This document shows positions 19,199 to 49,108 of a stretch of DNA of 64,000 nucleotides, piece after piece. The number at the start of each line of letters is the position of its first letter. Within the stretch, counting starts at the first letter, position 1. Source of the stretch: Clostridia bacterium (lineage in GTDB: Bacteria > Bacillota > Clostridia > Lachnospirales > Anaerotignaceae); contig JALCQR010000004.1 in NCBI GenBank assembly GCA_022651385.1, forward strand, positions 147,554 to 211,553, written 5' to 3'. The notes beneath the pieces are model-generated. The model had not been told where the DNA came from and did no database searches. It saw only the letters and a list, made by a program, of their open reading frames with translations. The position numbers were made by a program, and so were the translations under genes.

Positions 19199-21256
19199 AT
19201 GAAACGTTTTTTTAGGAATTCGATTTCCTTATTTGTAATTTTAATTATATTGCTGTTGATAATACCTTTAAGCCCTTTTTTGCTTGATATTTTATTTGTA
19301 TTTAATATATCTATTTCGCTTATAATTTTGCTTATAACCATGAATATAAAAGAGCCGCTGGAGTTCTCAATTTTTCCTTCCCTGCTGCTTATTACAACGC
19401 TTTTCAGGCTTGGATTAAATGTATCATCAACAAGACTTATTCTTACAAGGCAAGGTTCAGCGGGACAAGTTATAAAGGCTTTCGGAAGTTTTGTACTTCA
19501 GGGAAACGTTATTGTAGGAACTATTATATTCTTAATTATAGTTCTTGTACAGTTTATAGTAATAACAAAAGGAGCTGAACGTGTGGCTGAAGTTGCTGCC
19601 CGTTTTACCCTTGATGCTATGCCGGGAAAGCAGATGGCTATAGACGCCGACTTGAATTCCGGCCTTATAAATGAACAGGAAGCCAGAGTAAGAAGATATA
19701 AAATACAAAAAGAAGCCGACTTTTACGGAGCTATGGATGGTGCCACCAAAATTGTCAAAGGCGATGCCGTTATGTCATTGATTATTACTACTATAAACTT
19801 TGTGGCAGGTGTTATAATAGGTTCTGTTCAGTCCGGCATGAGTTTTTCAGAGGTTTTGCAGGTATACTCTATTGCTACAATTGGTGACGGACTTGTATCA
19901 CAGATACCAGCGCTTCTTATATCAACTGCAACAGGCATGATAGTTACCCGTTCGGTTTCAGAGGGAAGCTTAAATACTGATGTGGCAAGACAGTTCTTAG
20001 CTCAGCCTCAGGCTATTCTTATGGGCGGCAGCATTGTAGCAGCTCTTATTGTTGTTCCGGGTACTCCTAAAATTCCGCTTATTGTAGTATCGGCATTGCT
20101 TCTTTCACTCGGCGGAAATGTAAAGAAAAACATGAAAGAAAGCGTTGCAAAAAAACAGGTTAAGACTGAAGCTAAAGCTGCTGAAAAGCCGGCAAGCGAA
20201 GAAGATTATTACAAAGACGTAAACAATATTTACTCACTTATAAACGTTGAGCCTATAGAAATGGAGTTTGGCTACAGCCTTATACCGTTGGTTGATGAAT
20301 CAAGCGGAGGCAAGCTTATAAACAGAATTGTAATTTTCAGAAGAAAATATGCTCAGGATATGGGATTTGTAATTCCATCTATACGAATACGTGACAGTGC
20401 TTCGCTAAACCCTAACCAATATGTGATAAAGATTAAGGGTGAGGTTGTGGCAACAGGCGAAATTCTTGTGGATTATTATCTTGCCCTTGAGCCTTCAGAG
20501 CCTTCCGGTGATATAGACGGAATAGAAACTATTGAGCCGGCCTACGGAATACCAAGTAAATGGATACTTCCTGAAAATAAAGAGCTTGCCGAGTTATATG
20601 GTTATACCGTAATAGATCCACTTTCGGTTATGGTTACGCATCTGTCGGAAACGGTTTCGTCCCATGCTTATGAACTTCTATCAAGAACAGAAATTATGCA
20701 CCTTATTGACAACGTTAAGAAAAGCTCACCGGAAATTGTTGAGGAAGCATTCCCTAATATCATATCGTACAGCAATTTCCAGAAGATTATATCAAATCTT
20801 TTAAAAGAAGGCGTTCCTATAAAGGATATGGTTACCATTATAGAAACAATTGTGGACTCATCCTCCGCTGGAAAGGATATTGATACTATAACGGAAAATA
20901 TAAGAGTTGCCCTTAAGAGAACTATTACAAGAAAGTTCTGTGAGGACGGACAGATGAAAGTTATAACATTGGATGCTGAGCTTGAGAAGGTTATTATATC
21001 AAGCATGTCTAAAAGCGAACAGGGCGTTTATCTTTCGTTAAGTCCTGATGTTCTGCAAAAGATTTTGAATCAGCTTTCGGATAACATTAAAAAGTTCAAT
21101 GATATTTCGCACAGGCCTATTATTTTAACAAGTCACGTGATAAGAGTTTATTTTTATAGATTAATTGAGCAGTTTTATCCGAATGTAAGCGTTATTTCTT
21201 TTAATGAAATAGCAAATAACGTACAGATTCAATCTATAGGCAATATAAAAATTTAA
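19199..21256 (+). CDS. flhA: Flagellar export protein FlhA
   Basis: Largest export-gate component, which docks chaperone-substrate complexes. 685 aa from this ATG. An alternative ATG at 19187 adds four residues, and neither start has a strong ribosome site. Residues ~5-310 contain about eight membrane helices with the conserved FHIPEP-family segment RFTLDAMPGKQMAIDADLN (~135-155). The rest is the four-domain cytoplasmic part. flhF and flhG normally follow; here sigD begins 24 bases later. Confidence 0.95.
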   Translation: MKRFFRNSISLFVILIILLLIIPLSPFLLDILFVFNISISLIILLITMNIKEPLEFSIFPSLLLITTLFRLGLNVSSTRLILTRQGSAGQVIKAFGSFVLQGNVIVGTIIFLIIVLVQFIVITKGAERVAEVAARFTLDAMPGKQMAIDADLNSGLINEQEARVRRYKIQKEADFYGAMDGATKIVKGDAVMSLIITTINFVAGVIIGSVQSGMSFSEVLQVYSIATIGDGLVSQIPALLISTATGMIVTRSVSEGSLNTDVARQFLAQPQAILMGGSIVAALIVVPGTPKIPLIVVSALLLSLGGNVKKNMKESVAKKQVKTEAKAAEKPASEEDYYKDVNNIYSLINVEPIEMEFGYSLIPLVDESSGGKLINRIVIFRRKYAQDMGFVIPSIRIRDSASLNPNQYVIKIKGEVVATGEILVDYYLALEPSEPSGDIDGIETIEPAYGIPSKWILPENKELAELYGYTVIDPLSVMVTHLSETVSSHAYELLSRTEIMHLIDNVKKSSPEIVEEAFPNIISYSNFQKIISNLLKEGVPIKDMVTIIETIVDSSSAGKDIDTITENIRVALKRTITRKFCEDGQMKVITLDAELEKVIISSMSKSEQGVYLSLSPDVLQKILNQLSDNIKKFNDISHRPIILTSHVIRVYFYRLIEQFYPNVSVISFNEIANNVQIQSIGNIKI

Positions 21257-21280
21257 CACATGGGGGAGGGGTAGAAAAGT

Positions 21281-22054
21281 ATGAAGCTAAAAGAAAAATT
21301 ATGTGATATGACAAGTGAGGAGCTGTTTATTGAATACAAGACTACCCACAACTTGAAAGTAAGAAATGAGCTTGTGTTAAGATATATACATATAGTTAAA
21401 AACATAGCCATTCAGATGCGCGGTGTGTATAATGATTTGACTCAAATTGACGATATAGTAAATGAAGGTGTAATAGTTCTTATGAACGCGATTGACAAGT
21501 TTGACATAAATAAGAACATAAAGTTTGAGAGTTTTATTTCTAAAAGAATACGCGGACTTGTAATTGACATTGCGCGAAAGAATGACTGGGTGCCAAGAAG
21601 TATAAGAAAAGCCGCAAAAAGTGTGGACAAGGCGGCAAATGATCTTTTTATAAAGTTTGGAAGAATGCCGACCGATGATGAAATGGCTGATTATATGAAT
21701 ATGCCTATTGAAAAGTACAGAAAAGTGTTGGGTGACACCAATCTTATGAATGTTTTGTCCTTTGAGATACTTCTTGATGGCGCTGAAAACGGTTTGCCGG
21801 GCAATCAGGTTATGAGCTCTAATCTGGAAAGTATGCCGGAACATTATCTGGATACTGAGGAGTTAAAGATGGAAATGAGGGCCGGATTTAATAATTTAAG
21901 AGATAAAGAAAAACTTGTCATATCTCTTCATTATGTTCAGGGCCTTAACATGAAGGAAATAGCAGGGGTTTTGGGTGTAAGTGAGCCAAGGATATCTCAG
22001 CTGCACTCTAACGCTTTAAGAAAGCTAAGGATATATTTACAAGGAAGGATTTAG
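21281..22054 (+). CDS. sigD: Flagellar sigma factor sigma-28 (SigD/FliA)
   Basis: 257-aa group 3 sigma factor for late flagellar and chemotaxis genes. Region 2 reads LRYIHIVKNIAIQM...DDIVNEGVIVLMNAIDKFD. The linker has the typical RGLVIDIARKNDWVPRSIRKAAK. Region 4 ends with NMKEIAGVLGVSEPRISQLHSNALRKLR, a helix-turn-helix. GGGGGAGGGG precedes the ATG. Its antagonist FlgM is encoded at 41669, and sigma-28-type -10 elements are seen before flgM and flagellin. Confidence 0.95.
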   Translation: MKLKEKLCDMTSEELFIEYKTTHNLKVRNELVLRYIHIVKNIAIQMRGVYNDLTQIDDIVNEGVIVLMNAIDKFDINKNIKFESFISKRIRGLVIDIARKNDWVPRSIRKAAKSVDKAANDLFIKFGRMPTDDEMADYMNMPIEKYRKVLGDTNLMNVLSFEILLDGAENGLPGNQVMSSNLESMPEHYLDTEELKMEMRAGFNNLRDKEKLVISLHYVQGLNMKEIAGVLGVSEPRISQLHSNALRKLRIYLQGRI

Positions 22055-25897: not shown

Positions 25898-27130
25898 ATG
25901 AATAAGTATGTTGTACGTCAACCGATTAAGGATAAGAATAATAACATTGTTGCTTATGAAATAATGTATGAAGTCGACAAAATGGATATCTTTAATCAAG
26001 TTGAGGATTTTCAGGCTGCGGATACAATATCCGACTTTTTTATGCAAAATACATCTATGATTTCTGGAAACAATATTGTATTTATAACATTTACTCCAAA
26101 CCTGCTATTTAAAAATATGCCGAAAGTTTTTGAAAGTGATAAATTAGTTATACAAATAGAGGACAATGTTGTAATTCACCCATTATCAAACAATTTGATA
26201 ACAAAATACAGAAAAGAAGGCTATAAAGTAGCAGCAAATAATTTTCAGTTTAACCCAAAGTATTTTGCTATAATAGACTCTATAGATTACATAAAAATAG
26301 ACTTTAAAAATATTGAACATAGTTCAATAGATAATCTTGTAAGCATGGCTAAAGGCTTTAATAAAAAATGTGTTGCGACTGGTGTTGACTCAAAGGAAAT
26401 ATATGACTACGCTCTTTCAAAAAATGTGGATTATTTCCAAGGAGTTTATGTTTCGGAAATTGCAAAAACGCATATGCGAAAAACTGAATTTATACAAGGA
26501 AACTTTTTCAGGCTTGTTGTCGAAGTTACAAAAGCCGAGCCTGATTTAGAACAGATTGAGCAGATTATATCGAGAGATGCAAGCTTGTCCTACATGATTT
26601 TAAAAGTTGTAAACTCGCCGTATTTTGCCTTAAAAAACAGAGCCACAACAATAAAGCAGGCTCTTACGCTTTTAGGTTTAGTACAGCTTAAAAGGTGGGT
26701 TTATCTTTTGAGCTTTAAAAACGGTGACAGCAAGGAAGCCGAAGAAGTACTTAAAATATCGTTCTTAAGAGCTAATTTTTGCGCCGAGCTTGTGAAATAC
26801 ATAAAAGATTTCCCTATTAACTTAAATGAGGCCTACACTATGGGTATGTTCTCAACTCTGGATGTACTTATAGATGCACCTTTAAGTGAACTGCTTGACG
26901 AAATATATGTGTCCGACGAGGTAAAAGGAGCACTTTTAAATCATGAGGGCAAATGCGGAATGCTTTATGATCTTGTTTTGAGCTATGAAAAAGCCGATTG
27001 GAATAATTTAAAGTCTTATGCAGATGAGCTTGGCATACCGAGAAATGTCATAGCTCAGGTATATTTTGACTGTGTTGAAGAAGTTAACAACATATGGAAC
27101 AATGCTTTTAAAGTTTTGAAAGATAAATAA
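25898..27130 (+). CDS. Degenerate EAL-HDOD signalling protein
   Basis: 410-aa two-domain protein of the YuxH type. Residues ~1-200 resemble an EAL domain but the catalytic residues are lost: the EAL motif reads YEIMYE and the DDFG region reads NNFQ. It probably does not hydrolyse cyclic di-GMP, though it might bind it. Residues ~205-395 are an HDOD domain (IISRDASLSYMILKVVNSPYFALKNRATTIKQALTLLG). It follows cheV and precedes a bidirectional terminator. Related proteins act in motility and surface-behaviour signalling, but the partner here is unknown. Confidence 0.88.
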   Translation: MNKYVVRQPIKDKNNNIVAYEIMYEVDKMDIFNQVEDFQAADTISDFFMQNTSMISGNNIVFITFTPNLLFKNMPKVFESDKLVIQIEDNVVIHPLSNNLITKYRKEGYKVAANNFQFNPKYFAIIDSIDYIKIDFKNIEHSSIDNLVSMAKGFNKKCVATGVDSKEIYDYALSKNVDYFQGVYVSEIAKTHMRKTEFIQGNFFRLVVEVTKAEPDLEQIEQIISRDASLSYMILKVVNSPYFALKNRATTIKQALTLLGLVQLKRWVYLLSFKNGDSKEAEEVLKISFLRANFCAELVKYIKDFPINLNEAYTMGMFSTLDVLIDAPLSELLDEIYVSDEVKGALLNHEGKCGMLYDLVLSYEKADWNNLKSYADELGIPRNVIAQVYFDCVEEVNNIWNNAFKVLKDK

Positions 27131-27170
27131 AAATATCCCCATGAGATAAAAAGTCTTATGGGGTATTTTA
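27131..27170. terminator. Bidirectional terminator
   Basis: AATATCCCCATGAGA pairs with TCTTATGGGGTATT around TAAAAAG, with T-rich flanks on both strands. It serves the EAL-HDOD gene and the convergent ComFB gene. Confidence 0.85.
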
Positions 27171-27172
27171 TT

Positions 27173-28180
27173 TTAATGATGAGGATTGTTTTTTACTACG
27201 CTACAGGCCCGTGATAACTGTGCTGTTACAGCACCTTTATACTGGCTGCTGAAAAAATTTAATAACGGTGAAACGTATGAACTGTCTACAACGATATATT
27301 TTGCCGGAAGTCCGTTTAAGGCCAGAGCCATTACGTCTACTTTGCATCTTGGACACGTGCATACATCGAATAGTTTAAGAAACTCGTCAATTCTGCTTTT
27401 TACTATTTCCTCAAACACATTTACATATTGATATTCAATGCCGTTATTGTTTGATTCTTGAGAGCTGATTTCAGCCGAGGTTTCAGGAGCTTTTTTTGTA
27501 TCGTTTTCAGCTGAGGTCTCAGGAGCCTTTTTTGTGTCGTTTTCGGCTGTATTGGAACTTTCCGCTGCATTTTCAACTTTTTTTGTATCATCTTCAGCTT
27601 GTTTTTCATCCATATTTTCAGCTACATGTTTAAGAACGTTTTCAAAAGAACTTTTTGAAGCACTTTCAGAATCTGTTACAGAACTTTCTGTATTGCTTTC
27701 AGTTTGACTTTTTAAAATTTCAGCAGTGTCTTTAACTGTATCATTGCTTTCAGCTGAGTTATAATCAGTATTTTCGTTTTCATCAGTATTTTCGGAGCTT
27801 TCAGATATTGTTTCATTTTGAGCTACATCATTATCTGAAACAGCATCGGATAAAGACTCTGCATCCACAGTATCCAACTCATCGGCATTAAACTCTATGC
27901 CAGTATCATTTTGATTGGTCAGAATGTCCGATAGTGTGTCTTGTTTTGTACTATTTAGGCTTGCATTTATATCTCCATCATCAGCTATTTCGGAAAGCCT
28001 TTCCTTTACTTTCTCGGAAACTTTGTTATCTTTTGCTATGTCTACGTCTATAAAAGATAAATCATTTGTTATATCACTTTCGTTTGGCTCGATTTCTAAA
28101 TCGTCATCTAATTTATGCTCCTCCTTGGATTTTGATATTAGCTTAAGAACATGGGCTGTTTTGTTTGTTTTTCGTGACAT
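27173..28180 (-). CDS. ComFB-domain protein with a long acidic N-terminal region
   Basis: 335 aa. The C-terminal ~86 residues match the ComFB family: Cys274, Cys276 and Cys279 in DVCTCPRCKVDVMALALNGLPAKYIV. ComFB-family proteins in other bacteria have been reported as cyclic dinucleotide receptors. The N-terminus begins MSRKTNKTAHVLKLISKS and is followed by ~220 disordered acidic residues with tandem ENDTKKAPETSA units (DNA repeat near 27472-27545). The gene is 80 bases downstream of parA on the same strand and probably shares its promoter. No competence genes are nearby, so a motility or cell-pole role is more likely than competence. Confidence 0.85.
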   Translation of the reverse strand: MSRKTNKTAHVLKLISKSKEEHKLDDDLEIEPNESDITNDLSFIDVDIAKDNKVSEKVKERLSEIADDGDINASLNSTKQDTLSDILTNQNDTGIEFNADELDTVDAESLSDAVSDNDVAQNETISESSENTDENENTDYNSAESNDTVKDTAEILKSQTESNTESSVTDSESASKSSFENVLKHVAENMDEKQAEDDTKKVENAAESSNTAENDTKKAPETSAENDTKKAPETSAEISSQESNNNGIEYQYVNVFEEIVKSRIDEFLKLFDVCTCPRCKVDVMALALNGLPAKYIVVDSSYVSPLLNFFSSQYKGAVTAQLSRACSVVKNNPHH

Positions 28181-28260
28181 TATATTACCTCTTTTTACGT
28201 TTCTTGTTGAATTTTATGTAAAATATCTTTTAATTATACTTTCAAATAAAAATAATATGA

Positions 28261-29040
28261 TTACGTATTGCTTTTTTTAGCCCTACAGCGAACAAGTACA
28301 TCCTCTATAAAATTTATATAATCGGCAGTTGGTTTTGAGCTTGGTGCGTGAAGCAAAACCGATTCTCCATGTGCCGGTGACTCGGCAACTACAACACTTG
28401 CTCTTATTTTAGACGGAAAAACAGAGGTATCAAGCTGTTTTGCTATTTCGTTTGCAAGTTCTTCAACTTCTTTTGTTAGTTTTGTTCTGCGGTTATATTT
28501 TGTAAGCAAAATTCCCATTACGTCGAGATTTGTGTTATAAAACTTTTTGACTGTTTGTACGGTTTCTTTAAGCTGGCTTACACCCAAAAGACTTAGTATT
28601 TCAGGAACCATCGGTATAATAAGAAAATTAGAGCAAACATATGCGTTTACTGTCAGTATGTTAAGTGACGGCGGAGTATCTATTATTATAAAATCATAGT
28701 CGTTTTTAATGACATCAAGGTTTTCTTTTAATAGAAACTCACGGCCTGAACGGTTAAATTCTAATTCCGCTCCGCTTAACAAAATATTAGACGGTATAAT
28801 ATCTCCAAACTCGGTTTTGTGTATGGCATCTTTTATTGAGGCTTTGCCTTTTAAAACATCGTATATTGTTACAACATTTTCAACATCAAGGCCCATAGAA
28901 AATCCAAGATTGCCCTGAGGATCCATATCTATACCAAGAACTCTATAGTTTTGCAGTGAAAGTCCTGTCAGCAGAGCACATGTTGAAGTGGTTTTTCCTA
29001 CACCTCCCTTTTGGTTTGTAAATGTAATTACTAAAGACAC
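28261..29040 (-). CDS. ParA/Soj-type ATPase
   Basis: Deviant Walker A ATPase of the ParA/MinD superfamily, 259 aa from the GTG at 29040. The Walker A motif FTNQKGGVGKTTS (residues ~6-18), Walker A' IDMDPQGNLG and Walker B FIIIDTPPS are intact. It looks closer to Soj (chromosome ParA) than to FlhG: no FlhG-type N-terminal peptide and no C-terminal amphipathic helix of the MinD type are obvious. GGGGTG eight bases upstream selects this GTG over another GTG nine bases earlier. No parB follows; a ComFB gene takes that place. Confidence 0.9.
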   Translation of the reverse strand: MSLVITFTNQKGGVGKTTSTCALLTGLSLQNYRVLGIDMDPQGNLGFSMGLDVENVVTIYDVLKGKASIKDAIHKTEFGDIIPSNILLSGAELEFNRSGREFLLKENLDVIKNDYDFIIIDTPPSLNILTVNAYVCSNFLIIPMVPEILSLLGVSQLKETVQTVKKFYNTNLDVMGILLTKYNRRTKLTKEVEELANEIAKQLDTSVFPSKIRASVVVAESPAHGESVLLHAPSSKPTADYINFIEDVLVRCRAKKSNT

Positions 29041-29183
29041 AAGTATCACACCCCATATATAAATTATTTGATTTTGCTATTAATAAAAGTATACTATAGG
29101 TCGAAAAATAAGTATATAGGGTATTATTGAAAACTGATTATTTTTATATGCAATACTTTAAATTTTAACAAAGGAGGGCTATT

Positions 29184-31649
29184 ATGGATATAAGCAGTTT
29201 ATCTTCTGCTTCAAGCAGTAGCACAAGCAGTATTTTTGGGAGCACGAGTAAAGGTATAGGCGGTCTTGCCAGTGGCCTTGATACCGATTCACTTATTGAT
29301 GCCATGACTTCAAATATACGCTCAAAAATAGCTAAGCAAAAGCAAAGCAAACAAATACTTGAGTGGAAAATGGATGCCTATCGCTCTGTAAGTACAAAAT
29401 TGATTGATTTTGAGAATAATTATACCTCTTATGCATCCAGCACTAACTTATACAGTGAAAATTTCTTTTCCCGTAATGTAATAACGGCTTCTGGTGACAA
29501 CAGCAAATATGTCACTGTTTCGGGTACAGCTTCAAGCTCAACAGTTCTTGCCTTAAGCGGTGTTACTCAGCTTGCAAAAGACGCAAGTTTTACAACAAGC
29601 GATCCGCTTTCGGATAACTATATACAAACAGGTGCAATTTCTTATGGAGATATGGAAGAAAGCACTATAACAGGCGAAAAGCTGAAAATACAGCATGGCG
29701 ACCAAACTTACTACGTTGCTATACCTGAAAAAGATGGTGGCGGAGTATACACCAGTGTTTCAGAAGTCGCAGACGCAATTAATTCTGCTCTTAGTAAAAC
29801 TGATCTTACAGGAGACGTAAGTGACAAGCTTAGTAGTGTTCTTACTGTTAGTGCCGACGGAGACAAGCTTAAATTTACTAATATGGATATGTCTGGAAAT
29901 GACGTAAAGATAACAGGAGGGGATACAAATCTCCTTACAACGCTTGGATTAAAAACTGACACTGATACGATTGTTGGCAAAAGCATAACCGGTTCTTTAG
30001 ACGGCGTAGCAGATATTAATACGGATGATTTATCGAAAACTACTACTTTTGCTGAGAGGCTTAGCGGAAAGGCAGTAATGTTTACTTATAACGGCACTTC
30101 AAAAACAATTAAATTTGATGATACGGACAGACTTACAGAGTCTGATTTTAAAAACTATCTTCAAGACGAGCTTAACAGCAGTTTTGGAAATGGAAGAATA
30201 ACTGTAACAGACAGTAACGGGGGCTTGAAATTAGAGACCACAACGCCGGATGGTGCGGCGGATACAACTTCTGTTTTAAAGATGTCAAGCAGCTCGACTG
30301 GACTGTTTGGAAGCTACGGTGTTTTCGGAATAGAATCAGGAACTTCCAACAAGGTGAATCTTGATGTGGCCCTTGAGTCATCTGGATTAAAGGGTGCGGA
30401 TAATGTGTCCCTTACTGACGGAGAAAATGTTATAAGAATAAACGGCAAGGATGTAAAATTTACTTACGAAGCAGGCAAGACTACAATGGCCGACATAATG
30501 GAAGCAATTAATAACTCAGATGCAGATGTCAAGATTTCTTATATGGAAAACAGCGATAAATTCTCGGTTGCTTCTACTCAACAGGGAGCATCTGGAGACG
30601 TAACTTTTGGAGACGAATCCACAGGCGAACTTAATGACTTAGAAAAATTGCTTTTTGGGAAAAAAGACGAAAACGGCGATATATTGTCATCAAGCAATGA
30701 GTTAAACGGAACAAAGGTTAACGGACAAGATGCCAAAATAATGGTTGATTTCGACGGAGAAGGCGGAGCTGACCCTGTAGAAGTTACAAGGTCAAGCAAC
30801 AGTTTTACTCTTGACGGATTAAACATATCTGTAAGCGGCTGTTTTGGATATGACAGCGACGGTAACAAAATTGACGGCTCGGACGTAACATTTGACGCTT
30901 CGGTAGACGCTGACTCAATAGTAAGCGCTGTAAAAAGTATGATAGATGATTACAATGAAATTGTAGCAGGCACCAATACGGCGGTTAACGAAAAAAGAAA
31001 TTATGATTATGCGCCTCTTACCGATGAACAAGAAAAGGGTATGAGTGATAGCGAAATAACGGCATGGAATAAAAAGGCCCAAGCCGGCATGCTTTTTGGG
31101 AACAGCGATATGGTAGACCTGACAAATGACCTTAGATATGCATTTCTTGACACAAGAACAGACGGACTGACTTTTTCAGACATTGGAATAAGTGTTTCTT
31201 CTGATTATTCTGATAACGGTAAAATTACTCTTGATGAGTCGAAGCTAAGGTCAGTGCTTGAGTCAAATCCGGAAGATGTTCAGAAATTGTTTACATCTTC
31301 TTCAAATGACAGCAATTACACAAGCTCGTCAGGTTCAACGTCAAGCCTTACCACAGGCGGAGCTATGACACGTTTAAGGTCAGTAATGGAAAAATATGCT
31401 TCAACTACAGGCGCTACTAAAGGAATACTTGTTGAGGAAGCAGGCAATGCGGCATCAGCTACGTCAATGCTTTCTAACAACCTTCAAAAGCAGGTTGATG
31501 ATATAGACGACAATGTATCAGACCTTAACGATAAGCTTACATCGGATCAGGCAAGGTATCAGTCAAAATTTACCGAGCTTGAGCAAGTTGTACAAAAAAT
31601 GAATACGCAGAGCAGTTATCTTAGCAACATGTTTAGTAGCGGCTCTTAA
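29184..31649 (+). CDS. fliD: Flagellar filament cap protein FliD
   Basis: 821 aa, far larger than the usual 400-550 aa FliD. The N-terminal signature GIGGLASGLDTDSLIDAMTSNIRSKIAK and the long C-terminal coiled region (LSNNLQKQVDDIDDNVSDLNDKLTSDQARYQSKFTELEQVVQKMNTQSSYLSNMF) are typical. The extra ~300 residues are in the middle, rich in Ser, Thr, Asp and Gly, and probably add surface-exposed cap domains. AAAGGAGGG precedes the ATG. fliS follows after 24 bases. Confidence 0.93.
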   Translation: MDISSLSSASSSSTSSIFGSTSKGIGGLASGLDTDSLIDAMTSNIRSKIAKQKQSKQILEWKMDAYRSVSTKLIDFENNYTSYASSTNLYSENFFSRNVITASGDNSKYVTVSGTASSSTVLALSGVTQLAKDASFTTSDPLSDNYIQTGAISYGDMEESTITGEKLKIQHGDQTYYVAIPEKDGGGVYTSVSEVADAINSALSKTDLTGDVSDKLSSVLTVSADGDKLKFTNMDMSGNDVKITGGDTNLLTTLGLKTDTDTIVGKSITGSLDGVADINTDDLSKTTTFAERLSGKAVMFTYNGTSKTIKFDDTDRLTESDFKNYLQDELNSSFGNGRITVTDSNGGLKLETTTPDGAADTTSVLKMSSSSTGLFGSYGVFGIESGTSNKVNLDVALESSGLKGADNVSLTDGENVIRINGKDVKFTYEAGKTTMADIMEAINNSDADVKISYMENSDKFSVASTQQGASGDVTFGDESTGELNDLEKLLFGKKDENGDILSSSNELNGTKVNGQDAKIMVDFDGEGGADPVEVTRSSNSFTLDGLNISVSGCFGYDSDGNKIDGSDVTFDASVDADSIVSAVKSMIDDYNEIVAGTNTAVNEKRNYDYAPLTDEQEKGMSDSEITAWNKKAQAGMLFGNSDMVDLTNDLRYAFLDTRTDGLTFSDIGISVSSDYSDNGKITLDESKLRSVLESNPEDVQKLFTSSSNDSNYTSSSGSTSSLTTGGAMTRLRSVMEKYASTTGATKGILVEEAGNAASATSMLSNNLQKQVDDIDDNVSDLNDKLTSDQARYQSKFTELEQVVQKMNTQSSYLSNMFSSGS

Positions 31650-32481: not shown

Positions 32482-32516
32482 AAAAGCGTAGAACAATATA
32501 TTTGTTCTACGCTTTT
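32482..32516. terminator. Bidirectional terminator between the FliT-like and C39 genes
   Basis: A perfect 15-bp stem (AAAAGCGTAGAACAA / TTGTTCTACGCTTTT) with a 5-base loop. One arm includes the last sense codons and stop of the minus-strand C39 gene. T-rich sequence lies beyond the stem on the minus strand. Confidence 0.9.
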
Positions 32517-33328
32517 GGATTGCTTATAGACCAAAAAGGCCCGCCATAATTGGCCGAATATTTTGCCTCTTTTAAAATAATATCTATGTCCCATGGCGTT
32601 TTGCTGTTTTCTATGCTTTTCGGGTCGGCTATAAGAACCTTTGAGTCTTTTGTTATACCTCTCAGTATTATAAAATGTCCGTCAGTTGTAAAGGTTCCCT
32701 TATTCATAAGAACTACAATAATATTGCCTTTTGAGACATTATCAATTATATCCTGTTTTGATGGCTTTTCAAGGCTTTTGCAATCAAGACCATGCTTTTC
32801 TGCACCCTTTGGTATAATCGAGTGATAAGAGCCGTTATTATAGCTAAAATGACCGTTGTCGTACGCCCACTTTGCAGCATCAACAGGTGTTACTGTTTTG
32901 TCTGTAAGAGACGACAAAACCATTGCCAATACAGTAGGGCCGCATCCATATACACCTATGGTATTGTCTGCTCCGTAAATTGCGTTTTTCCAGCGGTTGT
33001 CCGTTTGAGAATAATAAACAATTTGTGATGTGTCAGATTTAAGCACAACATTATCCTCATTTTCGCTGTTATCTGTTTTATCAGGCGTTTCTTTTGCTTC
33101 GGCAACTTTTGCAATAGTTTTATCAGGCTTTTTAAGTGATGCAATCTCTGAATCAATTTTTTGCTTAACAACAACAGCAATCTTTTGTGAGCTCTCCTTT
33201 GTGTTTTTAACAAAGTAATCTATATCAGGAGGGGTTATGTTATTAGCAAAAAGATATAAAAACACAATAAAACTGATAAGCGTTACCATAAATATCATAT
33301 TAAATATTTTTTTAAATACTTCTTTCAT
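32507..33328 (-). CDS. Membrane-anchored C39-type cysteine peptidase
   Basis: 273 aa. One N-terminal membrane helix (~9-28) is followed by a Lys/Glu-rich helical stalk to ~95, then a peptidase C39-like domain facing outside. The expected triad is visible: Cys129 in GVYGCGPTVLAM, His218 in TDGHFIILRG and Asp235 in LIADPKS. The start is the ATG that shares ATGA with the stop of the upstream FtsE-like gene, so translation is coupled. The family includes secreted peptidases and possibly wall-processing enzymes. The substrate is unknown. Confidence 0.87.
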   Translation of the reverse strand: MKEVFKKIFNMIFMVTLISFIVFLYLFANNITPPDIDYFVKNTKESSQKIAVVVKQKIDSEIASLKKPDKTIAKVAEAKETPDKTDNSENEDNVVLKSDTSQIVYYSQTDNRWKNAIYGADNTIGVYGCGPTVLAMVLSSLTDKTVTPVDAAKWAYDNGHFSYNNGSYHSIIPKGAEKHGLDCKSLEKPSKQDIIDNVSKGNIIVVLMNKGTFTTDGHFIILRGITKDSKVLIADPKSIENSKTPWDIDIILKEAKYSANYGGPFWSISNPKA

Positions 33329-34011
33329 ACTATCCAACCATATTTTCCTTTTTTTACATCTCCAAGTACTTTACCGTTGTTTAATGTTATAACTCTTTTT
33401 TTCATAATGTCGACGAATTTTTTGGCATGTGTAGCAATTATTACTGTAATGCCAAGCCTGTTTATGTCGTTAAACAAACACATTATGTCCCATGCCGTTT
33501 CATAGTCAAGACTTGCCGTCGGCTCATCGGCTATAATTATTTTAGGATTATTAACAACAGCGCGTGCTATAAGTATCCTCAACCTTTCACCTTCAGACAT
33601 ATTTGAAGGGTATTCATTGATTTTTTTGTTCATTCCCACAAGCCCGAGGGCACGCGGAATGGAATCTTTGATTTTTTTTGACGGCTGCTGAGCCGCAAGC
33701 ATAGCCAGTTCTAAATTTTCATAAACAGTTTTCTGCTCCATAAGAGATATGTTTTTGTCTATTATCCCCAAAAGACGCCTGTAGTATGGCAGCTCTTTTC
33801 TGCCAATTTTATTTAATGAAAGATTGTAGACAAAAATATCTCCGCTTGTTGGACTAAGCTCTTTTGTTAAAAGTTTAAGCAAAGTGCTTTTTCCGGAGCC
33901 GCTTTTTCCTACAATAAAAACAAACTCGCCGTCATTAACGTAAAATGAGGCGTTTTCAACCCCTATAGAGTTATTAACGTAAGTTTTGGATACATTTTTA
34001 AGCTCAATCAA
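33325..34011 (-). CDS. Degenerate FtsE-like ABC ATPase
   Basis: 228 aa from a TTG at 34011 (AAAGAGG eight bases upstream). It aligns along its whole length with FtsE, including IELKNVSKTY, DGEFVFIVGKSGSGKST (Walker A 35-43), IIIADEPTASLD and ATHAKKFVDIMKKRVI. Two usually critical parts differ: the Q-loop Gln is Lys86 (GIIDKNIS instead of GVVFQDF), and the signature LSGGE is MSEGE. No ftsX follows; the next gene is a coupled membrane-anchored C39 peptidase. It may regulate that peptidase as FtsEX regulates wall hydrolases, or be a generic ABC subunit. Confidence 0.82.
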   Translation of the reverse strand: MIELKNVSKTYVNNSIGVENASFYVNDGEFVFIVGKSGSGKSTLLKLLTKELSPTSGDIFVYNLSLNKIGRKELPYYRRLLGIIDKNISLMEQKTVYENLELAMLAAQQPSKKIKDSIPRALGLVGMNKKINEYPSNMSEGERLRILIARAVVNNPKIIIADEPTASLDYETAWDIMCLFNDINRLGITVIIATHAKKFVDIMKKRVITLNNGKVLGDVKKGKYGWIV

Positions 34012-34151
34012 TGTTAATACCTCTTTATAATAAGACAATGTTTTACAAATTTCCCCTACTTAACAGTATAACATTTAAAACAAAAATTGTATACACTGAT
34101 ATACAACTATAAAAAATTTAAAAAATATTTTTATTTTTGGCGATTTATGTA

Positions 34152-44006: not shown

Positions 44007-44477
44007 TTATTTTTGATTTACAAGAAGCTCGCAGTTAAGGCAGAACATAACAGTACCGTCTGGAAGATTTGTCATTCCGCTTATAAATTCATGATTTTTT
44101 GCAGGCGGTGCTGAAATTTTGTTTTCAATATTAATTACCTGAGAAACGGCGTCAACAAGTATTCCTATTGATATATCGTTGACATTAAGAATAATTATAC
44201 ACGTTCCGCGGGTTTTCTCGCTGCATTCTTTGCTAATACGCTGTTTCATATCTATTATAGGTACTATTTGACCTCTTAAATTTATTATTCCCTTAACATA
44301 GTCAGGAACTCTTGGTAGCTTAGTTATATTATGGTTTGTTATTATCTCAACAACGTTTTCGATTGGTATACCGTAAACGAGATTGTTGGACATAAAAGTT
44401 AAATATTTTTGCATTTCTATATTTTGAGAATCTGTTTCTATATTTTCATTTTCTGTTTCAAATGATTCATCTGGCAT
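44007..44477 (-). CDS. cheW: Chemotaxis coupling protein CheW
   Basis: 156-aa adaptor linking receptors to CheA. Signature ENVVEIITNHNITKLPRVPDYVKGIINLRGQIVPIIDMKQR is intact, as is GILVDAVSQVINI. The N-terminal ~25 residues are acidic and extra. AAGGAGGG precedes the ATG. Confidence 0.96.
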   Translation of the reverse strand: MPDESFETENENIETDSQNIEMQKYLTFMSNNLVYGIPIENVVEIITNHNITKLPRVPDYVKGIINLRGQIVPIIDMKQRISKECSEKTRGTCIIILNVNDISIGILVDAVSQVINIENKISAPPAKNHEFISGMTNLPDGTVMFCLNCELLVNQK

Positions 44478-46731: not shown

Positions 46732-48162
46732 GTGTCGGATAATTTAAAGGTTACAACACCATTATCTGGATATGAAAATTCCACAAAGACAAACCCCATT
46801 TCCGTTAACGATACAAATATAAGCAACATTACAAATATAGATAAAGTTACAAGACAAGACGGAAGAACAGACGGTTCCGATGTTAAAGAAGAAAATTTCA
46901 TGCTGTACCAAAATTCAAATTTTGATGGCTTTTTAAAAATTCTGAAAAAAATGCCGTCAACCACTGAACTTTTGGCCGACCTTATGTTTACAAAATTGGG
47001 CAATCTTGTAACTTCCGGTATAAATGAAAATTTTGCACAGGAAATATCTAATTTTTTAGATATGATAAAACTGTCGCAAAACGATTTAAAAACTTTTATT
47101 GAGGGTCAGGCGGAAGTCAATACAAAGTTCGGGGGAATTTTTTTTGATTTATTGAGAAATATTTTGTCGGAGTCAAGCTCGTCTTCTTTAAATTTGTCAG
47201 TGCTTGAAATGCTGAAAAAATATAATGATTTTACATCAAGCAATCATATATTAAAAAGTATTTTAGCCGATATATCAAATATCAGTAAGAATATGCCGGC
47301 AAGGTTTTCAAAAAATTTAATGGAGCTTGTAGGCCATTTGGACCAAAACGCTGAGCTTGGAGATGTATCAAAAAATGTTGATGTACTTAAAAAAGAAATT
47401 ATGCCGTTTTTATCGGAGTATATTAAAAACACTAATGATTTCGGTACAGTTAGGAATTTGATATCATATCTTACTTTGAATATAGCAAGGTATGAAAACG
47501 CGGATAAAAAAGCATTTGCTGAAGCATTTAAAGAAGTAATGAGTTATAATGATGTTAAAAGAAAGTTTGGAGATGTAAACTCAGACAAACTTATAGAAGC
47601 TTTATTGAAAAACAGCACAGAAAAATTACATGGATATGAGTTTAATGATAAACTTATGAATATAATTGAAAGAGGAATAAAAGGAGAGGCCGGATATGAA
47701 AACATAGATTCATTTAAAGATATTTTATCCTCTATGCTTATAAATGAAAGCGTTTATATGCCGCTTATACACATTATGCTTCCGTTAAATGTGGAAAATA
47801 ATATGATGTACTCCGAAATTTGGATTGACCCGGATGACAAAAGCGACAAAAACGGCAAAGAAAGCTTAAAAGAAGATAAGGAAAGAAAAACCAAGCTTTT
47901 GGTGAAGTTTGATATAAAAAATGTTGGTTTTTTTGATTTAATAATTCTTCATCAAAAAAGCAAAATTGATATGCAGATTTTCTGTCCTGAGAAAATAATT
48001 AAGATTGATAAGACCATAAAAAGCAAGCTTAAAGAAATTATTGAGAAAAACGGTCTTACAACCGGTTCAATATCGGTCGGAAAAAGCAATACACCTGTTA
48101 GTATATCTGAGGTTTTCCCTAAAATTTATGAAAGGAAAAATACTGTAAATGTTAGAGTATGA
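46732..48162 (+). CDS. FliK-like (YlqG-type) protein
   Basis: 476-aa, mostly helical protein. It begins at a GTG eight bases after AAAGGAAGG. I see no firm domain, but the last ~110 residues (KLLVKFDIKNVGFFDLIILHQKSKIDMQIFC... IIEKNGLTTGSISVG) resemble the beta-rich C-terminal domain of hook-length control proteins. It is followed, with a 14-base overlap, by a stand-alone FlhB C-terminal domain, which is the partner of FliK in export switching. The pair corresponds to the ylqG-ylqH arrangement of B. subtilis. Confidence 0.65.
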   Translation: MSDNLKVTTPLSGYENSTKTNPISVNDTNISNITNIDKVTRQDGRTDGSDVKEENFMLYQNSNFDGFLKILKKMPSTTELLADLMFTKLGNLVTSGINENFAQEISNFLDMIKLSQNDLKTFIEGQAEVNTKFGGIFFDLLRNILSESSSSSLNLSVLEMLKKYNDFTSSNHILKSILADISNISKNMPARFSKNLMELVGHLDQNAELGDVSKNVDVLKKEIMPFLSEYIKNTNDFGTVRNLISYLTLNIARYENADKKAFAEAFKEVMSYNDVKRKFGDVNSDKLIEALLKNSTEKLHGYEFNDKLMNIIERGIKGEAGYENIDSFKDILSSMLINESVYMPLIHIMLPLNVENNMMYSEIWIDPDDKSDKNGKESLKEDKERKTKLLVKFDIKNVGFFDLIILHQKSKIDMQIFCPEKIIKIDKTIKSKLKEIIEKNGLTTGSISVGKSNTPVSISEVFPKIYERKNTVNVRV

Positions 48163-48460
48163 TGATAAATTGCCAAATAAAAAGGCTGTAGCCTTAAAGT
48201 ACGATAACGGACAGATAGCACCTATTGTAGTGGCTTCGGGAATGGGGCGTTTAGCCGAAAAAATAGTTGAGGTGGCATCCGAAAACGGAGTCCCGATTTA
48301 TGAGGACACTTCTTTAGCAACGGTGCTTTCAAAGCTTGAGCTTGGAGCCGAGATACCAGAGGAAATTTATAAGGTGGTTGTAGACATATATTTGTACTTT
48401 CTTAAATTTTCGCCGGAAAAAGATAAAGAGAGCGATAAAGAGAGCGGAGGCGAAACGTAA
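48149..48460 (+). CDS. Stand-alone FlhB C-terminal-domain protein (YlqH type)
   Basis: 103 aa aligned to the cytoplasmic end of FlhB just after its cleavage site: KKAVALKYDNGQIAPIVVASGMGRLAEKIVEVASENGVPIYEDTSLATVLSKLELGAEIPEEIY. It has no membrane part and no NPTH, so it looks like a pre-cut FlhB fragment. Such paralogues can replace FlhB-CC or modulate export switching. Full-length FlhB is also present (18116). AAAGGA lies ~12 bases before the ATG. Confidence 0.9.
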   Translation: MLEYDDKLPNKKAVALKYDNGQIAPIVVASGMGRLAEKIVEVASENGVPIYEDTSLATVLSKLELGAEIPEEIYKVVVDIYLYFLKFSPEKDKESDKESGGET

Positions 48461-48493
48461 AATAAGTCCGAACATTTAAAGGGGGAAAATGCA

Positions 48494-49108
48494 GTGTCGG
48501 GAAGATGTATAATAATAAATAATGAAAACAGAGCAATTGATTATGCCAGTTTAAATTTTATTACCAGCGGAGGAGCGGTTATTGTCCCTTTTAATATTGA
48601 TACAATAGGAAAATTAAAAGAAGGCCATAGGCTGAAATTTCAGGTTGAGAATAAATACAAGAATATTTTTGACGGAGAAATTATAGAAATTGAAAAAAAC
48701 AAAGTCCATGTTGATGATATAAGAGATTTAGGCCCTATGTCGAGCAGAAAAGATGTTAGAGTAAATGTAAATTTCGACTCATGTATTTTATGCAAATCTG
48801 ATGAAGGTTATTTGTCAATAGACATAAAAGTACGTAACGTAAGCTCGGGAGGTATGTGTTTCATTTGCCATGATAATCTTGACATGGATAAAATATATGA
48901 AACTGTTGTGGACTGGATAAAAACACCAATTATAGTAAAACTAAAACTTTTAAGAAAAGAACATGTTGAAAATAATATGATTTTATACGGCTGTAGTTTT
49001 GTAGATCTTCTTAAAGAAGAAGAAAAACTTTTAAGAGCAGGAGTTTTTTACATACAAACGAAGAAATTTAAAATGGATGGGAGCAATGTTAACGATGCAG
49101 TTTGCTAA
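48494..49108 (+). CDS. PilZ-domain protein with YcgR-like N-terminus
   Basis: 204-aa probable cyclic di-GMP receptor. The PilZ binding residues are present: R85xxxR89 (SRKDVRV) and N115xSxxG120 (RNVSSGGM). Residues ~15-75 resemble the YcgR flagellar-brake N-terminal domain. It starts with GTG after AAAGGGGG. It lies between the FlhB-like gene and the large SLH protein and overlaps the latter by up to 32 bases. It could act on the motor like YcgR/MotI, or control the surface protein. Confidence 0.85.
   Translation: MSGRCIIINNENRAIDYASLNFITSGGAVIVPFNIDTIGKLKEGHRLKFQVENKYKNIFDGEIIEIEKNKVHVDDIRDLGPMSSRKDVRVNVNFDSCILCKSDEGYLSIDIKVRNVSSGGMCFICHDNLDMDKIYETVVDWIKTPIIVKLKLLRKEHVENNMILYGCSFVDLLKEEEKLLRAGVFYIQTKKFKMDGSNVNDAVC

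Follow-up and report, generated by a model that had tools for sequence, protein, structure and literature searches.

A ParA ATPase and a ComFB-domain protein encoded as a gene pair in clostridial flagellar islands: a candidate positioning module

Known systems and the parA-comFB pair

In the FlhF-FlhG system, a P-loop ATPase of the ParA/MinD superfamily is encoded within the flagellar gene cluster, and the N-terminal extension of FlhG, situated before the P-loop, activates FlhF. In ParC-ParP and PpfA-TlpT, an orphan ParA from a motility locus is served by a dedicated adaptor; the C-terminus of ParP is an AIF/CheW-like domain, and it is via its C-terminus that ParP integrates into chemoreceptor arrays. 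FleQ-FleN and BcsE-BcsQ bring together a ParA/MinD-type ATPase and cyclic di-GMP (c-di-GMP), judging by the titles of the structure entries, and their c-di-GMP receptors belong to protein families other than ComFB. Here we describe a gene pair, parA-comFB, whose products are an ATPase of the ParA type and a protein with a ComFB domain (the adaptor), in a 64-kb stretch (the window) of contig C4 from a Clostridia genome of 2.61 Mb, 99.88 % complete. The window contains a large flagellar-chemotaxis island, whose best named relatives are mostly from Anaerotignum (Lachnospirales, Anaerotignaceae), and the pair is situated between the chemotaxis genes and fliD.

The window pair resembles FlhF-FlhG in having a P-loop ATPase of the ParA/MinD superfamily within a flagellar gene cluster, but its ParA has no FlhF partner, lacks the C-terminal amphipathic tail and starts just before the P-loop. 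Unlike in ParABS and Soj-ParB, ParB_N is missing from the partner and the linkage is to flagellar genes; a separate Soj-ParB pair is encoded on another contig of the genome. As in ParC-ParP and PpfA-TlpT, a motility locus encodes an orphan ParA and an adaptor dedicated to it, here a ComFB protein that has no CheW domain; the carboxysome-positioning McdA-McdB has another cargo and another adaptor. The adaptor has in common with Bacillus subtilis ComFB and cyanobacterial CdgR/ComFB the PF10719 domain, the Zn ligands and, as aligned, most dimer residues, but B. subtilis ComFB is small and the solved CdgR chain has 179 residues, leaving no room for the long acidic linker. Among the matches listed from the open-access literature, we found no paper on a ParA-ComFB pair and no description of these ComFB proteins with a ParA. 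Positioning systems of this general kind are known; what is likely new about the pair is the class of its adaptor. From the sequence evidence below, we lean towards the view that parA-comFB is a two-gene module in which a peptide of the adaptor binds and stimulates a Soj-type ParA, the pair positioning or counting flagellar complexes under predicted cyclic-dinucleotide control.

The two genes form a unit with parA upstream of comFB and a gap of 80 bases, a tandem arrangement pointed out in the original prediction and borne out by the coordinates of the open reading frames (ORFs). Both lie on the strand opposite to an EAL-HDOD gene (25898-27130) and to fliD (29184-31649). The features of the pair are as follows.

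28261..29040, minus strand: parA, Soj-type ParA ATPase, 259 residues, GTG start
27173..28180, minus strand: comFB-domain adaptor, 335 residues, PF10719, conserved downstream of parA in relatives
28133..28180, minus strand: basic N-terminal peptide of the adaptor, MSRKTNKTAHVLKLIS, codons 1-16, predicted ParA contact, with a helix predicted from residue 7
27980..28030, minus strand: conserved linker helix, the second of the adaptor (SEKVKERL), codons 51-67, kept in the ParA-less genomes G018 and G020
27434..27979, minus strand: acidic linker, codons 68-249, low-confidence (predicted disordered), with a 36-bp tandem repeat
27176..27433, minus strand: ComFB domain, codons 250-335, Zn ligands C274, C276, C279 and H335

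The parA ORF is listed as 28261-29049, but its start was set to the GTG at 29040, as initially proposed, by the conserved xVSxIITLTNQKGG of the nearest relatives; a GGGG box lies 10 bases upstream. The product carries a deviant Walker A box with the signature lysine (NQKGGVGKTT), with N12, Q13 and K14 invariant in 39 sequences. R216 is also invariant and R188 is conserved to at least 90 % in A6; in the alignment, R188 lies opposite a Soj arginine and R216 near one, arginines which we take to be nonspecific DNA-binding residues. A C-terminal amphipathic tail is absent from the window ParA and seven aligned orthologues, is present in MinD and has a similar counterpart in FlhG, which also shows a long extension where the window ParA begins, 8 residues before NQKGG. 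In fold-neighbor comparisons, which include FleN-FleQ and BcsE-BcsQ complexes with c-di-GMP (by entry titles), identity was 15-16 % to solved FlhG, and 18-19 % to FleN versus 33-39 % to the nucleoid Soj type. Homologous ParAs, where named among the matches listed, are called "ParA family protein", "chromosome partitioning protein" or "Soj". By these sequence comparisons, the window ParA is Soj-like and not of the FlhG type. One homolog with 67 % identity (P0159), known from its protein match alone, is named from Epulopiscium/Candidatus Epulonipiscium sp.

Three other ParA/MinD-type genes of the genome exceed the Pfam cut-off: the Soj beside ParB on contig C2, a gene on C5 for a MinD-type protein whose P-loop reads SGKGG and whose tail resembles that of MinD, and a gene on C9 known from the Pfam match alone. 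There is no ParB_N (PF02195) match beside the window ParA; those in the genome are only on C2, one of them adjoining Soj. A ParB encoded elsewhere, which the original prediction had counted against its own proposal, was therefore rejected as the partner, since it belongs beside the separate chromosomal Soj.

The ComFB adaptor and its N-terminal peptide

PF10719 is the only Pfam domain of the adaptor (residues 253-333, E 2.1e-17, 63.4 bits versus a cut-off of 25), which remains under the cut-off of the B. subtilis-type competence ComFB equivalog NF052654 (33.3 versus 120 bits). A basic N-terminus and a long acidic linker, both described in the original prediction, were confirmed. Among 58 adaptors from ParA-bearing loci, the mean modal identity was 81 % in the peptide, 60 % in the ComFB domain, 46 % in the mid-linker helix and 15 % over linker residues 70-245, with a tether of 71 to 228 residues across the 58 sequences. 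The 36-bp tandem repeat of the window linker (27469-27549) has 2.2 copies, and other in-frame linker repeats occur in the adaptors of some relatives. In a structural model, residues 7-20 and 51-67 formed helices, with a third (179-189) of low confidence, and the ComFB domain reached a predicted local distance difference test score (pLDDT) of about 97. Foldseek matched this domain with B. subtilis ComFB (4wai, E 4e-5) and with c-di-GMP-bound Synechocystis CdgR (8hja, E 3e-3); the sequence-profile E-values were 2.8e-8 and 0.0074, respectively.

Three Cys and one His occupy the Zn-ligand positions in 58/58 adaptors and, from the alignment, H335 would be the fourth ligand, which in the ComFB Zn site is Cys or His (PMC4381287; here and below, papers are cited from partial texts). 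The dimer interface of B. subtilis ComFB involves residues N4, E7, D33, N40 and Y46 (PMC4381287); their counterparts are N254 (58/58 adaptors), E257 (48/58), D282 (58/58) and Y295 (57/58), and the position of N40, residue 289, is N in only 14/58. Synechocystis ComFB binds c-di-AMP (cyclic di-AMP) with a dissociation constant of 2.6 uM, and 1.7 uM is cited there for c-di-GMP (PMC12313861). Taken with the ComFB/CdgR fold and the 11 GGDEF matches of the window genome, this published cyanobacterial binding indirectly supports cyclic-dinucleotide control of the adaptor, the second-messenger response raised in the original prediction, and makes it somewhat probable.

The peptide was scored with the pattern [KR]-[ST]-[NS]-K-T-x-H-V-[LM]-x-L-[IL], some positions being looser, in 101 loci, of which 99 had a long ComFB ORF and 97, after setting aside two cut by contig ends, could be scored. 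The two loci that gave no ORF in this count were a stretch without comFB (L091) and that of G019 (L102), where both ParA and the peptide were present when read by eye. The peptide occurred in 94/94 loci with an upstream ParA and was absent in 3/3 without it (G018, G020 and L128); without 11 duplicates, these figures are 83 distinct ParA-bearing loci with the peptide and three ParA-less loci missing it. Since G018 and G020 belong to the same genus and have nearly identical adaptors, two losses, and not three, probably occurred. The best genome-wide ParA matches of G018 and G020 (completeness 92 and 98 %) are Soj-like, with 43-44 % identity, and no ParA-type P-loop was found in L128 within the 19 kb readable. 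The 0.26-kb fliD-comFB gap of G018 and G020 had only chance-level similarity to ParA, and a ParA remnant was rejected, the weak tblastn matches in 0.55-kb stretches around this gap having a best E of 0.05 among the matches listed.

In genus g6, ParA-bearing and ParA-less adaptors have in common 3-5 of the 16 peptide positions and 60-70 of the 86 domain positions. The two ParA-less adaptors, compared with each other, share 8/16 positions in the peptide, 17/17 in the mid helix and 82/86 in the domain. This decay of the peptide, with the mid helix and the domain kept in the absence of ParA, would be expected of a protein in which the peptide has its role with ParA and the remainder has another. 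Because it is the most conserved part of the adaptor, occurs in all ParA loci and is missing without ParA, the basic N-terminus is very likely the ParA contact, which sustains its initial assignment to this role. Charged N-termini are used by partner proteins as a general rule (PMC10241942).

A database search with adaptor residues 1-45, restricted to proteins of 0.55-1.75 times the query length, gave 153 matches, and 113 of the 120 listed had PF10719. Six of the remaining seven were truncated or frameshifted ComFBs and were rejected as exceptions. An in-frame ParA/peptide fusion (P0054) on a contig of 1485 bases is probably a sequencing artefact and was not used as evidence. A 241-residue ComFB frame in the FlhF-bearing genome G107 was likewise discarded, for it lacks the peptide and continues, across masked sequence, into an unrelated protein further downstream.

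Distribution of the pair and absence of FlhF

In a family set of 37 genomes from 14 genera, FlhA was found in 19 (18 over the cut-off, plus G014 with FlhA in two pieces) and PF10719 in exactly the same 19, which supports the link to flagella suggested by the original prediction. In G014 (C7:11786-13793), FlhA is split over two frames, through sequence error or decay. A ParA of 60-100 % identity was found near ComFB in 17 of these 19 genomes, the next ParA matches not exceeding 44 %. The order flhA-sigD-flgF-flgG-cheC-cheD-cheV-(EAL-HDOD)-comFB/parA-fliD-fliS was largely constant in 19 stretches from 18 relatives; G036 has the block fliS-fliD-parA-comFB in the reverse orientation. A second, short stand-alone ComFB (an 88-residue frame at C1:127102-127344, L013) is present in the same island of G007 as the long one, and was left outside the peptide count.

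A scan of named genomes, in which the peptide was one of two patterns and which therefore favors peptide-bearing loci, matched 353 stretches, 252 of them relatives, and the best 80 of these 252 were kept. They include records named Lachnospiraceae, Pseudoflavonifractor (Oscillospiraceae), Butyricicoccus (Butyricicoccaceae), Lacrimispora (Lachnospiraceae) and Proteocatella (Peptostreptococcales). At least two of twelve flagellar/chemotaxis genes were present in 78/80 kept stretches, and ParA was just upstream of ComFB in 77/80. Altogether, parA lies upstream of comFB in 83/90 distinct loci examined, besides the window and G019, so that the arrangement is far beyond chance; the adjacency expected from the original prediction thus recurs across clostridial flagellar islands devoid of FlhF.

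The junction between flhA and sigD, where flhF and flhG had been reported missing, has the following coordinates, in agreement with the initial description.

21257..21280: flhA-sigD junction of 24 bases without flhF/flhG (flhA ends at 21256, sigD starts at 21281)

A distance of 21-105 bases separates flhA and sigD in 71/71 loci measurable at both ends (102 submitted, duplicates included), the corresponding distances in two controls that carry FlhF being 2.7 and 8.3 kb. PF00448 finds in the window genome only two signal recognition particle GTPases, adjacent on contig C12 and presumably Ffh and FtsY, and no TIGR03499 match exceeded the cut-off in the 37 family genomes. FlhF was thus found nowhere in the 99.88 %-complete genome, inside or outside the window, nor in the family set.

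In a class sample of 393 genomes, the same set size for the FlhA, FlhF and ComFB searches, three FlhA rows with E ~1e-4 (G086, G110 and G208) were dropped as spurious before counting. FlhA was found in 155 genomes, FlhF in 138 (137 with FlhA) and ComFB in 114 (113 with FlhA); conversely, FlhA occurs in 113/114 ComFB genomes versus 42/279 of the others. This suggests that ComFB, of any length and despite its competence name, has a general flagellar role across Clostridia. Class-wide, ComFB is mostly a short protein, with ParA beside it in 0/8 such loci read. Among the 18 FlhA genomes without FlhF, a long ComFB was found in four (G000, G008, G244 and G139), and ParA adjoins it in 4/4.

Proposed function, alternatives and context

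In the mechanism that we favor, dimers of ATP-bound ParA would bind the nucleoid, as suggested by the Soj-like fold, the conserved basic residues and the lack of a MinD/FlhG membrane tail. The adaptor may dimerise via its zinc ComFB domain, presenting two basic peptides on long acidic tethers, and these peptides would trigger ParA ATPase activity and release, generating a ParA gradient. The cargo, for which flagellar basal bodies under assembly are the likeliest candidate, could be held by the mid-linker helix, the ComFB domain or both, and binding of c-di-GMP or c-di-AMP to this domain might switch the cargo or the ParA contact. The whole would be a positioning module of the diffusion-ratchet type. 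That the cargo is either flagellar or chemotactic appears fairly probable; the choice of flagella over chemoreceptor arrays is a closer judgment, leaning to flagella.

Several points weigh against this proposal. Taken as a whole, the model of the adaptor was poor (mean pLDDT 64), chemoreceptor arrays are another conceivable cargo, and the class sample includes 14 flagellates without either FlhF or the ParA-ComFB pair. G018, G020 and L128 lack ParA and keep ComFB and flagellar genes, so that, as judged from these genomes, the ParA system can be done without and ComFB also acts independently of ParA. In an FlhA tree of 94 distinct sequences (without rows from L237, L239, L251 and L252, which gave no FlhA; G157, G119 and G139 are outside it, and G244 is inside only if its duplicate L139 gave FlhA), all pair-type islands form one clade with support 0.924, comprising 53 with ParA, counted as having the pair, and three without. 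Its sister group consists of five genomes from two families with neither FlhF nor a long ComFB (union support 1.0), and no ParA-type P-loop was found in the sister genomes G115, G383 and G263 within the 20-60 kb read. The association between the pair and the absence of FlhF thus amounts to a single event on the tree, the Fisher p of 1.3e-4 notwithstanding, and replacement of FlhF/FlhG would rest on that event.

As both FlhF and the pair are missing from the sister clade, the loss of FlhF/FlhG probably preceded the gain of the pair, and a simple swap was rejected. The suggestion that the pair stands in place of FlhF/FlhG therefore holds in that it arose in a lineage without them; as a replacement it is weakened by this sister clade, by the ParA-less relatives keeping flagellar genes and by an ATPase that is not of the FlhG type. 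ParA and FlhA distances are correlated (Spearman 0.77, 0/999 permutations, 49 loci), and by this measure the pair has travelled with the flagellar island since its gain. A mobile or plasmid partition unit was rejected because these distances agree and the ComFB protein has no plasmid match.

The pair might instead position chemoreceptor arrays, as do ParC/ParP or PpfA/TlpT, having been inherited with its cheC-cheD-cheV neighbors, an alternative that we consider unlikely. These three genes adjoin the pair in the family islands and in many named loci, and are missing at this place, together with ParA, in L128; they are retained, however, in the ParA-less G018 and G020. Positioning of chemotaxis clusters by ParA/MinD proteins has been published (PMC10241942, PMC9178275), but by Pfam the adaptor contains only ComFB and no CheW domain, and the CheW of the window (44007-44477) has an acidic and not a basic N-terminus.

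Somewhat less probable still is a role without positioning, in the cyclic-dinucleotide-dependent regulation of flagellar gene expression, in the manner of FleN/FleQ or CdgR/DevH. The FleN-FleQ complexes among the fold neighbors of the window ParA would fit it, as would the action of Anabaena CdgR via the transcription factor DevH (PMC13075795), although this ParA is of the nucleoid Soj type, distant from FleN, and no transcription-factor gene was seen immediately next to the pair, either in the window or in the islands of 18 relatives, read by similarity to the window proteins. Finally, ComFB could be the part that does the work, acting on the flagellum as a receptor of cyclic dinucleotides, with ParA as an accessory of minor or unrelated function; this agrees with the mostly short ComFBs that follow flagella class-wide without an adjacent ParA in the eight loci read, with the survival of ComFB and the mid helix without ParA in G018 and G020, and with ComFB in L128, but is improbable, because the peptide, found in all 94 ParA loci, constrained more strongly than the domain and decayed without ParA, makes ParA binding the likely selected function of the long ComFB form.

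The remaining features of the locus flank the parA-comFB pair.

27137..27163, plus strand: terminator-like hairpin of 11 pairs (hairpin scan) in the gap where the convergent comFB and EAL-HDOD genes meet
29077..29118: conserved promoter-like element between the divergent parA and fliD, TTATTTTTCGACATATAGTATACTTTTATTAA in near relatives
25898..27130, plus strand: degenerate EAL + HDOD protein, convergent neighbor of comFB, at the same place in 11/18 relatives' islands

The hairpin is weak taken alone, with three such sites in 26900-29400 versus 1.4 expected. The core of the promoter-like element was present in the 260 bases upstream in 69/86 loci, with ~10 expected from mononucleotide shuffling, and the element is retained near fliD in the ParA-less G018 and G020. 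A scan with a SigD-consensus pattern gave two matches versus 0.78 expected, none near parA-comFB. The EAL-HDOD protein has AYEIMY at the position of the EAL signature, and because this signature is missing it is probably not an active phosphodiesterase; its gene is not at this place in 7/18 relatives' islands, including those from Anaerotignum. Near fliS (32507-34038), two genes, each listed as starting with TTG, code for an FtsE-like ABC ATPase and a C39-type peptidase; they recur near fliS in most of the relatives' islands read. A free-standing protein similar to the C-terminus of FlhB (103 residues) is followed by a PilZ-domain protein (48149-49108), a candidate for another c-di-GMP receptor in the island.

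A review on enteric gamma-proteobacteria asks whether flagellar place and number are regulated or random (PMC12826062). For peritrichous bacteria without FlhF/FlhG, the parA-comFB pair offers a concrete two-gene candidate for setting both, in gut and environmental Lachnospirales. We suggest, tentatively and as something still doubtful, that the pair belongs to a new class of ParA system: the protein linking ParA to its cargo would double as the receptor for a cyclic dinucleotide, and the second messenger would itself switch flagellar place or number. Such a system would have arisen, after the loss of FlhF/FlhG in a clostridial lineage, by the addition of a ParA-triggering peptide and tether to a flagella-tied ComFB. 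If the proposal is true, ComFB, known from competence, would gain a flagellar role in Clostridia, and second messengers would be linked to ParA-type positioning.
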